Source: Nitrosomonas communis
GTDB taxonomy: Bacteria > Pseudomonadota > Gammaproteobacteria > Burkholderiales > Nitrosomonadaceae
Direction of reading: 5' to 3'
NCBI RefSeq assembly: GCF_001007935.1
Contig: NZ_CP011451.1
Coordinates: 2,976,001-3,040,000, forward strand
Length of the DNA: 64,000 nucleotides
The notes beneath the pieces are model-generated. The model had not been told where the DNA came from. It saw nothing but the letters and a program-made list of their open reading frames with translations, and did no database searches. This document shows positions 51,690 to 55,215 of this stretch, in pieces. Both the position numbers and the translations under genes were made by a program. How positions within the stretch are numbered: the first letter of the stretch is position 1; each line of letters begins with the position of its first letter.

Positions 51690-53186
51690 ATGAGCGATTT
51701 TCCAGAATACGACGAAATCCATGTTATTTCAGACATTCACATGGGTGGCAATAAGGTAGATTTTCAAATTTTGCGTGAAACCGAGCGCCTCGCCAACTAT
51801 ATCGGTTGGGTCGGACAGCAACGGCCTGGCGGACGCGTGGCATTGATATTGAATGGCGATATCATCGATACATTGGCAGAAGACATTCACGGCTATGTGG
51901 CCACTGATGAAGCCATTGCCACCGTACAGCGAATCATGAAAGATGCATCTTTTTCCAATATCTGGAAAGCTTTGGCTGATTTTGTCAAATCGGAAGGACG
52001 CACCCTGATCATTATCATTGGCAATCACGATATTGAATTATCTTTTCCTGTGGTACAACGCCTGATTATCACGTATCTGGCAGGAGCTGATCAAACAGCG
52101 CGCGCACGCATTGAATTTTGCACAACCGGCGCAGGCTACACCTGCATGGTTGGAAATGCACACATCTATTGTACTCACGGGAATGAAGTGGATGCGTGGA
52201 ATTACAACCGTTATGAAGATCTCGCAAAAGTGGGGCGACGCTTGAATGTGGGCCGTTCACTTAGTCCCAGCGAATGGTACCCCAATGCCGGTACGCGCAT
52301 GGTTAAAGATATCATGAATGAAGTGAAGCGCAAGTTTGCCTGGATCGATCTGCTTAAACCAGAAACATCTGCCGCCGTCGGTACCTTATTGGTACTTGAC
52401 CCATCACAAGCAAGTAAAATCAATAAGCTGCTACCGATTGTGGGTGAAAAGGTAGAAGGACAAAAGCAAATTGATCAACGGCTTTCCGCTGAAGGCTTTC
52501 ACCAGCCCAGTCAGGATGCTGCCATCCCATTTACCGCCGATCGTTTATTAGGGCCCAACCTTAAAGCTGGTGTATTAGGCGCTACCGCAACTGACACCCG
52601 TAGCGCTGATGACATGTTGCTCGCTGCGGAAAAGAGCTTTCGTACTGGTGCACAGACTGTCTTAACCGCTAACAGCACCTTAGGCACACCACAACTCATC
52701 TGGGATAGTTTAACTGGTTGGATGAGGGGTGTCGGTAAAGATGAAGCACTGCGTCGTGCGCTTAAAGACTGGTTGGAAGATGACAAAACATTTGATATTT
52801 CCGATCAGGATGATACTTACAAACAGGTGACGGCCGCAGTCGGATCATCCATTGACTTTATTATTACCGGTCACACGCATCTTGAACGTGCCATCAACAT
52901 GGGAGGCGGGCGCTATTATTTCAATAGTGGTACCTGGATTCGTTTGTTACAGTTTACCGAAGCCATGTTAAAAAACACAGCTTCCTTCAAACCAGTATAC
53001 GATGTACTCATCAATGGAAAAATGGAAGCGATTGATCAGGCAAGATTTGATAATCAGCCATTTGTGATGGACCAGACCAGCGCTATATCGATCAAAGAAG
53101 AAAGCGGTAAAGTAGTTGGGAGGTTGACCCATGTTGTGGGTGACGGCTCAGGCCTACCTCTTGAGATAAAAAAATTCCCGGAGTAA
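51690..53186 (+). CDS. Calcineurin-like metallophosphoesterase, partner of a CHAT protease
   Basis: The 498-aa soluble phosphoesterase has a complete metal site: D15 and H17 (SDIHMGG), D57 (NGDIID), N112 and H113 (GNHD), H163 (CTHGNE) and H395/H397 (GHTH). An insertion of about 210 residues lies between H163 and GHTH, much longer than usual, mostly helical with repeated hydrophobic clusters; it may be the contact surface for a partner. No signal peptide. AAGG precedes the ATG, 53 bp after rne. The CHAT gene begins 4 bp downstream, so the two are made together. The substrate is unknown. Confidence 0.88.
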   Translation: MSDFPEYDEIHVISDIHMGGNKVDFQILRETERLANYIGWVGQQRPGGRVALILNGDIIDTLAEDIHGYVATDEAIATVQRIMKDASFSNIWKALADFVKSEGRTLIIIIGNHDIELSFPVVQRLIITYLAGADQTARARIEFCTTGAGYTCMVGNAHIYCTHGNEVDAWNYNRYEDLAKVGRRLNVGRSLSPSEWYPNAGTRMVKDIMNEVKRKFAWIDLLKPETSAAVGTLLVLDPSQASKINKLLPIVGEKVEGQKQIDQRLSAEGFHQPSQDAAIPFTADRLLGPNLKAGVLGATATDTRSADDMLLAAEKSFRTGAQTVLTANSTLGTPQLIWDSLTGWMRGVGKDEALRRALKDWLEDDKTFDISDQDDTYKQVTAAVGSSIDFIITGHTHLERAINMGGGRYYFNSGTWIRLLQFTEAMLKNTASFKPVYDVLINGKMEAIDQARFDNQPFVMDQTSAISIKEESGKVVGRLTHVVGDGSGLPLEIKKFPE

Positions 53187-53190
53187 TGAT

Positions 53191-55215
53191 ATGAGCACTA
53201 TTCCCAGCAAAGCCATCCAAAAAGTCAAACTTGAATTTCTCAGACCGGGACCCTCGCACAATCAGTTACTCTCTCCCCTTACGCCATATATTGCGTTATG
53301 TGGCGAAGAAGGGCCAGTGACGGTGCAAATGCCATTTGAGCACCGACAATTATTAATGCGCTTGCGCAGGTTACGTTATGAATCCGATAAGGACCCCGCC
53401 AAGGATGAGCAACGCCAGGCTGAAGTTCGTGATTTAGGTGAAGCGATTGGGAGAGTGCTCGGTCAGATTCCAGCGTTGCTTTCCGAATTGGGTAATGCCG
53501 CAGTGGAAGCCGGAAAACTGGTTCATCTGCGCCTTTCCTTATCTGCGTTTGAGCTTGGCCTGGTTCCATTTGAGCTTGCCGTCGGCGTGGATGGATTCCC
53601 AGGCTCTGGCTCCCCGTTATTCCTACAAACACGTGCACCGATCTCAATCACACGAGAAATCCGCCGCGGGCGGCCTCTTCCAATTAATTGGAACCGGCCA
53701 CCCCGTATCCTCTTTGCTTTTGCAGAACCCGATGGACTTTATGTTCCCGCTCAATCTCATTTACAAGCCCTACGTTCAGCCATCGAACCGTGGGTAAAAA
53801 TCAGAAACCCAGGGAGGGATAAGGAACGCGTAGAGGATGTTAAAAAGATTTTGACTGTCCTGCCTAATGCGACCTTGAAACAGATCCGTGAAGCATGTGC
53901 CCAAGCTGAGTATACTCATGTACATATTCTGGCACATGGTGCACCCTTGGAAAATTCCGGTAATAAACGCTACGGCGTAGCGTTATGTAGCGATTTTGAT
54001 TCAAGCAAAGATATCATTGATGGTGAAAGGCTTGCCATTGCGCTGACAGCGCGTGATTCATCAGGAAATACAAAATTCTGTCCGACACTCGTTACGCTCG
54101 CAACCTGTGATTCAGGCAATATCGAATCGATGCTTACCCCTGGTGGCAGTATCGCACATGAACTGCATGCTGCAGGTATTCCCTGGGTGATTGCATCACA
54201 GTTCCCGCTATGGATGAGTGCTTCAGCAATTGCTGCCGAAGTACTTTATCAACGACTACTGGATGGCAACGACCCGCGCTGGGTCATCTATGAATTACGT
54301 CAGCGCTTACGCACCGATGCAGCAGGCACTCATGATTGGGCCAGTATCGTCGCTTACGCCACCGTACCATTAGATTTTGAAGACCAGGTCGATGCCTTCC
54401 GCGACAAACAAATCAGAAGACGACTGGAAGTCAAATTTGATCGGATCGATGAACTGGTAGGGGCTAATATCGAGATTGAACAAACCCAGCAAACGTTCGA
54501 TTCTGCTGAACTTGAAGAAGAAATCGGTTTCTTGTGCAAGTCGATTCGTAACGAACTCAAAGCATGGCGTGAGGAGCCTGAAGCAGTGGCATCTTTCGAA
54601 ATCAAAGCCGAACGCCTCGGCATGAGTGCAGCCAGTGAGAAACGTATTGGCATCGCCTATTCATTACTTGCAAGTAACCATGCGGTTGATCCCAGCAAAA
54701 TTCCGAAGTGGGCAAAGGAAAGCAAAAAAGCCTATGAAGCTTCTCAAGCATACTATCGCGAAGCCTTGGAATTCGAGCCGCATAATTATTGGGTGATGAC
54801 GCAATTTCTTTCCATTACAGCCATACCTGCCTTAACCAGTAGTGCAGCTTTTAAATGCTTATCAGAAGAGTATGGTCAATGGTGGATCACGGCTCGCCAA
54901 ATTGTCGAGTGGGAGTTGAATAAGGCCAGCGGAGATAATCGGGCGTATACCTTAGCAACAATGGCCGAGCTCGCTTTGCTCGGTGTAGCCTATGGTGTAC
55001 CAGATTTCAATGATCCACACGCAAAAGAGGAGATTATTCGTTATTGCAATGAGATGCGGGCGCAGCTTGATCCTGATGACTTCCCGCTCCTGTCAACACA
55101 GCGTCAATTCAGGCGCTACATCAGATATTGGGATAGAGAAGAATGGAGAGGTTTGGCCTATACTGCCTTGGAAACGTTAGGAGGTAGATTATCAGAAGAA
55201 TCTCTGGAAGATTGA
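53191..55215 (+). CDS. CHAT-domain caspase-like protease with TPR-like C-terminus
   Basis: The 674-aa cytoplasmic protein. A CHAT peptidase domain covers about residues 90-395. The catalytic dyad is visible: H249 in HVHILAHG and C306 in LVTLATCDSGN, with GIPWVIASQFPL and MSASAIAAEVLYQRLL after it. Residues 400-470 are a charged helical linker. 510-535 is a TPR-like hairpin (KAYEASQAYYREALEFEPHN), followed by more helices to the end. GGAG overlaps the end of the preceding gene, so translation is coupled. CHAT proteases act in conflict systems; the target here is unknown. Confidence 0.9.
   Translation: MSTIPSKAIQKVKLEFLRPGPSHNQLLSPLTPYIALCGEEGPVTVQMPFEHRQLLMRLRRLRYESDKDPAKDEQRQAEVRDLGEAIGRVLGQIPALLSELGNAAVEAGKLVHLRLSLSAFELGLVPFELAVGVDGFPGSGSPLFLQTRAPISITREIRRGRPLPINWNRPPRILFAFAEPDGLYVPAQSHLQALRSAIEPWVKIRNPGRDKERVEDVKKILTVLPNATLKQIREACAQAEYTHVHILAHGAPLENSGNKRYGVALCSDFDSSKDIIDGERLAIALTARDSSGNTKFCPTLVTLATCDSGNIESMLTPGGSIAHELHAAGIPWVIASQFPLWMSASAIAAEVLYQRLLDGNDPRWVIYELRQRLRTDAAGTHDWASIVAYATVPLDFEDQVDAFRDKQIRRRLEVKFDRIDELVGANIEIEQTQQTFDSAELEEEIGFLCKSIRNELKAWREEPEAVASFEIKAERLGMSAASEKRIGIAYSLLASNHAVDPSKIPKWAKESKKAYEASQAYYREALEFEPHNYWVMTQFLSITAIPALTSSAAFKCLSEEYGQWWITARQIVEWELNKASGDNRAYTLATMAELALLGVAYGVPDFNDPHAKEEIIRYCNEMRAQLDPDDFPLLSTQRQFRRYIRYWDREEWRGLAYTALETLGGRLSEESLED

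Follow-up and report, generated by a model that had tools for sequence, protein, structure and literature searches.

Why a calcineurin-type phosphoesterase and a caspase-like protease should be encoded side by side is the question raised by a locus of Nitrosomonas communis, in which a metallophosphoesterase (MPE) gene is followed directly by the gene for a CHAT protease. The locus lies in the stretch analysed here, 64,000 nucleotides of contig NZ_CP011451.1 (positions 2,976,001 to 3,040,000; hereafter the window, with positions counted from its first letter). We find that MPE and CHAT form a conserved, rare and coupled two-gene unit. We further propose, tentatively and at somewhat less than even likelihood, that they constitute a proteolytic switch in which the sensing CHAT protease would cut and thereby ungate the MPE, harming or arresting the cell.

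A conserved and coupled gene pair

The two open reading frames (ORFs) and the features within them are given below. Conservation is counted throughout over 58-sequence alignments, which hold the window pair and 57 relatives and exclude L007 and L048 (both with a split CHAT frame) as well as L061 and L063 (no CHAT).

51690 to 53186, + strand: MPE gene, 498 amino acids (ORF; Pfam Metallophos match, E 8.5e-9, over cut-off)
51732 to 51740, + strand: metal motif D15-x-H17 of the MPE (invariant, 58/58)
52176 to 52178, + strand: metal ligand H163 of the MPE, where the long insertion begins (invariant, 58/58)
52473 to 52709, + strand: MPE codons 262-340, part of the insertion and predicted gate (low predicted local distance difference test score, pLDDT; islands of conservation)
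52548 to 52553, + strand: candidate cleavage site 1, L287-G288 of the MPE (44/58 sequences)
52680 to 52685, + strand: candidate cleavage site 2, L331-G332 of the MPE (53/58 sequences)
52872 to 52880, + strand: metal motif H395-x-H397 of the MPE (invariant, 58/58)
53180 to 53183, + strand: GGAG, likely ribosome-binding site of the CHAT gene, within the last codons of the MPE gene
53191 to 55215, + strand: gene for the CHAT protease with a TPR-S-like C-terminal domain, 674 amino acids (ORF, Pfam, models)
53212 to 54375, + strand: caspase-like CHAT region, residues 8-395 (structural match to Craspase TPR-CHAT over residues 8-393)
53935 to 53937, + strand: catalytic H249 of the CHAT protease (invariant, 58/58)
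54106 to 54108, + strand: catalytic C306 of the CHAT protease (invariant, 58/58)
54388 to 55179, + strand: TPR-S-like helical domain, residues 400-663, predicted sensor

Both the 4-base gap between the genes and the placement of the second gene's ribosome-binding site inside the first, as described in the initial annotation, are confirmed by the ORFs and by the GGAG, which stands 7 bases from the CHAT ATG. To follow the pair beyond the window, the MPE was searched for in a prokaryote genome collection holding one genome per species. The resulting 68 loci comprise 57 clear relatives (L008-L064; E 1e-34 or better, 28-97% identity) and 11 weak ones (L065-L075; E 3e-11 or worse). A CHAT gene lies directly downstream of the MPE in 55 of the 57 clear loci, the exceptions being L061 and L063, and none was found at the loci of the weak relatives (0/11), so the two genes are not rarely adjacent, which the initial annotation had named as grounds for abandoning the idea of a system. 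These counts are based on tblastn-anchored frames, a simple gene caller having missed the MPE behind antisense ORFs in some loci. Of the 55 paired loci, 54 have a gap of between -14 and +18 bases; in L048 it is 142 bases, since the CHAT frame there is split. All eight plasmid records with the MPE carry a CHAT relative alongside it, and the distances within the two families correlate with r 0.95, a figure that includes shared ancestry.

The closest relatives of the window pair are found in Nitrosomonas. By our own grouping of record titles, the 57 loci include Proteobacteria, metagenome-assembled genomes (MAGs) of Desulfobacterales type, Myxococcota, Acidobacteria (Bryobacteraceae), anammox and Phycisphaerae Planctomycetes and an Acidimicrobiia MAG. 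Within this range the unit is rare: of 274 genomes of the class, 2 match a CHAT family profile, one of them in fragments, and of 85 Nitrosomonas genomes, 6 match the CHAT query (P0002) strongly and one more only marginally, at 6.6e-4. The host genome itself, a single contig of 4.07 Mb, holds a single CHAT match by Pfam. No relatives of the pair were found among viral contigs or phage records, both of which were searched, and viral or phage carriage was accordingly rejected.

A phosphoesterase with a long, conserved insertion

The first protein belongs to the calcineurin-like metallophosphoesterase superfamily by its Pfam match, its D-x-H / D / N-H / H / H-x-H ligands and its fold. The full metal site initially read from the sequence stands, all eight named ligands (D15, H17, D57, N112, H113, H163, H395 and H397) being invariant in 58/58 aligned sequences. 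In its structure model (pLDDT 80.6, predicted template modelling score 0.82), the MPE has an LpxH-like fold: LpxH, the UDP-2,3-diacylglucosamine hydrolase, is the nearest solved structure (VIA-align: Z 17.8, root-mean-square deviation (rmsd) 3.7, 212 aligned), yet at about 16% identity, and a DNA polymerase delta subunit comes next (VIA-align: Z 14.2, rmsd 3.9, 204 aligned). The MPE insertion is much longer than the lid of LpxH. Structure alignments of 55 rows were made for each protein, the MPE alignment taking in L061 and L063, and sequence searches of solved structures with the MPE and CHAT family profiles returned doubtful matches only.

The insertion, put initially at about 210 residues, spans 212-250 residues from H163 to H395 across relatives, with a median of 232. 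Residues 270-285 and 293-337 within it are modelled at pLDDT below 50, and this poorly modelled stretch shows islands of conservation at a few positions. Two of these are Leu-Gly pairs, L287-G288 in 44/58 sequences and L331-G332 in 53/58, with both present in 44/58. Leu-Gly occurs 2.2 times per MPE loop as against 0.8 times in shuffled loops, the sequences being related to one another. Among the 11 weak MPE relatives without a CHAT found on the locus, three of which lie on contigs shorter than 9 kb, the loop is nearly absent (9-18 residues) in five.

A CHAT protease with a TPR-S-like domain

By its Pfam match (E 9.8e-24; 84.7 bits against a cut-off of 24) and its His/Cys dyad, the second gene product is a CHAT protease, and the H249 and C306 already picked out in the window protein are invariant in 58/58 sequences. 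Its model (pLDDT 87.6) lies nearest to Craspase TPR-CHAT (Z 23.3, rmsd 3.5, 302 aligned, residues 8-393), followed by separase (Z 21.3, rmsd 3.8, 305 aligned) and also SAVED-CHAT (Z 20.6, rmsd 2.6, 197 aligned). The PADLOC SAVED_CHAT match (E 1.3e-13) is confined to residues 222-391 within the CHAT part.

What was first described as a TPR-like tail is, in the model, a C-terminal helical domain related to Pfam TPR-S (PF20308), with Y522, E593, Q639, R642 and Y643 invariant. Matches to PF20308 at E <= 1 are found in 35 of the 58 CHAT relatives (best 1.2e-7), the window protein matching weakly at 13.4 bits against a cut-off of 27.6. Furthermore, the profile of this domain aligns with the TPR-S trypsin protein of L061 (hhalign probability 73%, E 3.1e-5), and the two have an STxRQ motif in common. 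The domain is TPR-S-like.

Elsewhere in the window genome there are two strong TPR-S matches, at G000:C1 3181345-3181704 and 3178453-3178734, both inside L185; the protein that contains the first of these (L160:1204-2619) also shows a MAP3K TRAF-binding match.

A proposed proteolytic switch

In the switch that we propose, the TPR-S-like domain would sense a signal, probably, and perhaps one that is a nucleotide derived from nicotinamide adenine dinucleotide (NAD). The triggered CHAT protease would then cut the MPE within the flexible stretch of its inserted lid, with L287-G288 and L331-G332 as the likeliest sites. This cut would open the two-metal active site and free an activity on a phosphoester or pyrophosphate, in a substrate that may be a nucleic acid, a nucleotide or a lipid-linked nucleotide, and the freed activity would harm or arrest the cell, as part of phage defence or of some other stress-death response. 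We infer sensing, cleavage, ungating, substrate and purpose alike by analogy with described systems.

The analogy begins with the protease. Substrates of CHAT proteases are often encoded near the protease (PMC9729208), and for this reason the MPE itself is a likely substrate of the adjacent enzyme. In type III-E CRISPR, the Craspase TPR-CHAT protein (Csx29) is reported to cut Csx30 after L407 (PMC9729208); it has in common with the window protein the CHAT fold and the His/Cys dyad, and just as its substrate is encoded nearby, the putative partner here is adjacent. It differs in that its helical domain is N-terminal, the one here being C-terminal, and in that the putative partner here is an enzyme. 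We noticed no CRISPR genes next to the window pair, no profile search for gRAMP/Cas7-11 or Csx30 having been made. SAVED-CHAT likewise has the CHAT domain, with the other domain in the window protein being TPR-S-like instead.

The gating side of the proposal draws on PMC12799240. In Hachiman and AVAST, as described there, a nuclease pro-enzyme is activated by a partner protease, HamM being activated by cutting in two disordered insertions; in canu, CanC is activated by CanAB, and defence requires the cut sites predicted in CanC. As in the Hachiman, AVAST, Lamassu, DRT and canu systems of that paper, the hydrolase gene of the window pair adjoins the protease gene and the partners co-occur. As in its trypsin systems, the hydrolase gene is upstream. 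Here as in that paper, the hydrolase carries insertions (disordered by prediction there) with conserved residues within them. The differences are equally clear: the window hydrolase is a calcineurin-type phosphoesterase and theirs a metallo-beta-lactamase nuclease, the window protease is CHAT with a TPR-S-like domain and theirs trypsin or a MALT1-like caspase, and activation by cleavage is here proposed from sequence and models. Because the hydrolase is not of metallo-beta-lactamase type, we do not file the pair as a member of the gated pro-nucleases; it is best seen as a phosphoesterase analogue of such gated nuclease-protease pairs. The words 'Calcineurin', 'metallophosphoesterase' and 'CHAT' do not occur in the main text of PMC12799240, the Discussion of which expects other enzyme classes of the gated pro-enzyme design.

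Caspase-type conflict systems (PMC7159879) resemble the pair in placing a caspase-superfamily peptidase alongside a constant hydrolase gene; they differ in that the peptidase belongs to MoxR-vWA ternary systems and the hydrolase is of alpha/beta type. In keeping with the initial annotation, which knew of no system with exactly these two proteins, we found no publication on the MPE-CHAT pair in the PMC subset, a coverage that takes in neither preprints nor most subscription papers.

Diverged relatives with exchanged partners

The two clear MPE loci that lack a CHAT gene have other protease genes in its place. In L061, a TPR-S-trypsin gene comes after the MPE gene; in L063, a trypsin-AAA gene and then a TPR gene do so. 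Relatives of the L061 trypsin protein occur on three rhizobial plasmids (L151:5056-7668, L152:3696-6218 and L153:3747-6254), one matching over its full length and two over about 70-74%; their genes lie 9-12 bases after a gene with weak, below-cut-off matches to alpha/beta hydrolases. The reverse exchange may be seen in G507 (L188:4791-7825, minus strand), where a CHAT-TPR-S gene overlaps its neighbour by 4 bases. The CHAT-TPR-S protein is 30% identical to the window CHAT (TPR-S 41.3 bits, over cut-off), and the best solved relatives of the neighbour's product are competence/ComEC beta-lactamase-like domains. Since this is the enzyme class of the pro-nucleases in PMC12799240, we count it in favour of the switch; the G507 locus is possibly canu-like with another protease type. 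From these loci we infer a modular layout in which an exchangeable hydrolase is followed by a sensor-protease.

Genomic site and neighbouring genes

The initial annotation placed the pair between rne and holB-tmk (names that are its own labels, given without a family-library scan of those proteins) and took it for an inserted cassette. The site does appear empty elsewhere: rne and holB are adjacent in the relative G011 (L084), which among the searched genomes has the next most similar holB (72% identical). The composition of the cassette gives no such sign, its GC content showing no deviation, and a recent insertion as judged by composition was set aside. holB was found in 37 of 38 genomes of the genus, 30 of which provided loci. 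CHAT adjoins it in two of these (the window genome and G018), the end of rne lies near it without the pair in two (L084 and L092), and neither CHAT nor rne is within about 1.5 kb in the other 26. Membership of a conserved rne operon, which would have spoken against a separate system, was rejected, as the flanks differ outside five Nitrosomonas loci: in gene clustering over 72 loci, the 863-881-residue upstream ORF read as rne appears in L008-L011 and L014 alone, all Nitrosomonas. That clustering found no gene family but the pair itself recurring beside it in most loci.

Flanking genes were scanned at 36 loci (L027-L060, L062 and L064, among them two from the clade of the window pair, L029 and L058). 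Limits on length, distance and number (five per locus) left 173 eligible genes, of which 137 from 30 loci passed a residue limit and were scanned, with none from L056-L058, L060, L062 or L064; some are probably spurious antisense ORFs, and the counts are raw and lack a control set. Among the best 25 of 42 PADLOC families, ThsA, ThsB and Cas3 account for one gene each, mad8 for four, mad3 for three and AriA for two. Regulators, transporters and metabolic enzymes make up most of the best 25 of 138 Pfam families, which also include a ThsB-type TIR, present in two genes. In direct scans, L028 showed a TIR-NACHT-TPR gene 24 bases upstream of its pair, and L033 an upstream TIR gene. Upstream genes are not constant, and include a flotillin in L036 and a TPR protein in L012. 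Of the check proposed in the initial annotation, then, the part concerning adjacency held and the part concerning nearby defence genes found few; a strong defence-island claim was dropped as unproven.

Two further neighbourhoods are recorded for their own sake. In L036, a Desulfobacterium MAG, the flotillin gene (L036:8205-9998) shares 4 bases with the beginning of the MPE gene. On a Methylobacterium plasmid, a Dam methyltransferase, a second metallophosphoesterase and an ORC-CDC6-like gene form one run near the pair (L004:10159-14084).

A companion operon in one clade

Genes for an alpha/beta hydrolase, an ADC-like protein, a patatin and a GMC oxidoreductase precede the pair on its own strand, in part or all together, in L017, L018, L020, L021, L023-L026 and L058, and L022, ended by a contig edge, shows the GMC part. 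Loci of this kind occur in Methylobacter, Shewanella, Rheinheimera and Azotobacter. In the window genome the operon is found about 240 kb from the pair (L116:7662-13371; G000:C1 about 3265661-3271370). Its GMC oxidoreductase, 34% identical to that of L017, has cholesterol oxidases as best solved matches (7.1e-39), with the flavin adenine dinucleotide part beginning near residue 210.

ADC served as a marker of this operon, not as proof of the whole of it, the full unlinked operon having been read only in the window genome and G439. Strong ADC matches occur in 9 of 50 searched genomes, 48 of which are CHAT carriers, with a weak one in the genome of L036; seven additional carriers outside that search have ADC adjacent to the pair, giving 16 of 55 carriers. 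In a tree of the 58 pairs, one clade has 22 tips, the window among them, and ADC is strongly matched in 17 of these, as against none of the 33 searched tips outside the clade (three plasmid tips were unsearched). Across the class, ADC was found in 3 of 321 genomes: that of the window, G234 (the class's other CHAT carrier) and a third, weakly. Within Nitrosomonas it is present in 5 of 6 CHAT carriers as against 6 of 79 other genomes, the form without CHAT being 77-79% identical to the query and that in carriers 62-63%. Two Nitrosomonas genomes of the former kind, G026 and G006, show no recognisable GMC or pair in the stretch read. The link between operon and pair is suggestive, and is confounded by descent.

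Weighing the explanations

Several observations weigh against the switch. As to the fold, Foldseek places Rv0805 and purple acid phosphatases level with LpxH, Rv0805 coming first by a narrow margin. The candidate cleavage sites are missing from part of the family, L287-G288 in 14 of 58 paired MPEs and L331-G332 in 5, and conservation is a weaker guide to cut sites in any case, since Craspase orthologs cleave a nonconserved site in Csx30, according to the title of PMC11106740. Six of the 11 weak, unpaired MPEs have a loop of 71-75 residues of other sequence, so that a loop alone is no mark of pairing. In L063 the MPE loop counts 62 residues (paired range 59-96) and holds no Leu-Gly, and the MPE of L061 lacks D15, H17 and D57 in the alignment, with positions 112-113 unreadable. 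Finally, defence neighbours are few in the flank scans, and the co-occurring lipid-type operon suits a metabolic role too.

It is possible, if in our view rather unlikely, that the MPE instead destroys (or makes) a nucleotide signal sensed by the TPR-S-like domain, thereby setting a threshold, and that the CHAT effector cuts other proteins. The nucleotide- and pyrophosphate-cleaving Rv0805 and LpxH are among the best fold matches of the MPE. TPR-S domains, furthermore, are said to have been predicted by Burroughs and Aravind in 2020 to sense NAD-derived signals. Calcineurin-type enzymes have also been proposed as nucleotide-cleaving parts of conflict systems (PMC7159879). A signal-clearing enzyme, however, needs neither tight coupling to a protease nor a long insertion with conserved sites, and no constant signal-making neighbour is apparent, because no family but the pair recurs in most loci. 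The companion operon gives rise to another explanation, that of a regulatory pair in a lipid or sterol-like pathway, with the MPE acting on a lipid-linked phosphate and the protease controlling the GMC-hydrolase-ADC-patatin enzymes. The operon's position upstream of the pair in some loci and in the same genome here, the concentration of ADC in one clade and in Nitrosomonas carriers, the cholesterol-oxidase-like oxidoreductase and the nearness of the MPE fold to LpxH would all fit. We nonetheless consider this explanation improbable: other lineages of the pair are without a strong ADC match and six Nitrosomonas genomes have ADC without CHAT, so neither needs the other, and the Nitrosomonas carriers may be one lineage, the clade being explicable by shared ancestry or joint transfer. 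An accessory pair that serves ordinary stress physiology and plays no part in immunity or cell death would suit the regulators, transporters and metabolic enzymes that dominate the best Pfam flank families, as well as the lack of viral or phage relatives in the collections searched. It strikes us as fairly remote given the unit's rarity (2 of 274 class genomes), its presence in distant phyla and on plasmids, and its effector-type domains.

The proteolytic switch thus remains the explanation that we put forward. In a more specific form, to which we give rather little credence, a CHAT protease with a TPR-S-like sensor would uncap an LpxH-like two-metal MPE that attacks a lipid-linked or nucleotide substrate, a further class of gated pro-enzyme in bacterial immunity, which in one clade would be joined by a cholesterol-oxidase-like/patatin operon with membranes as its possible target.

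Implications

By analogy, the MPE-CHAT pair could be an unrecognised relative of protease-activated antiviral enzymes. With the pair present in several phyla, the switch offers named residues for direct test: L287/G288 and L331/G332 in the candidate gate, C306 in the protease and D57 in the phosphoesterase. If the proposal is true, proteolytic activation of effectors would reach from metallo-beta-lactamase nucleases to calcineurin-type phosphoesterases, matching the general expectation for other enzyme classes voiced by the authors of PMC12799240, and it would point to a modular sensor-protease that works with exchangeable hydrolases.

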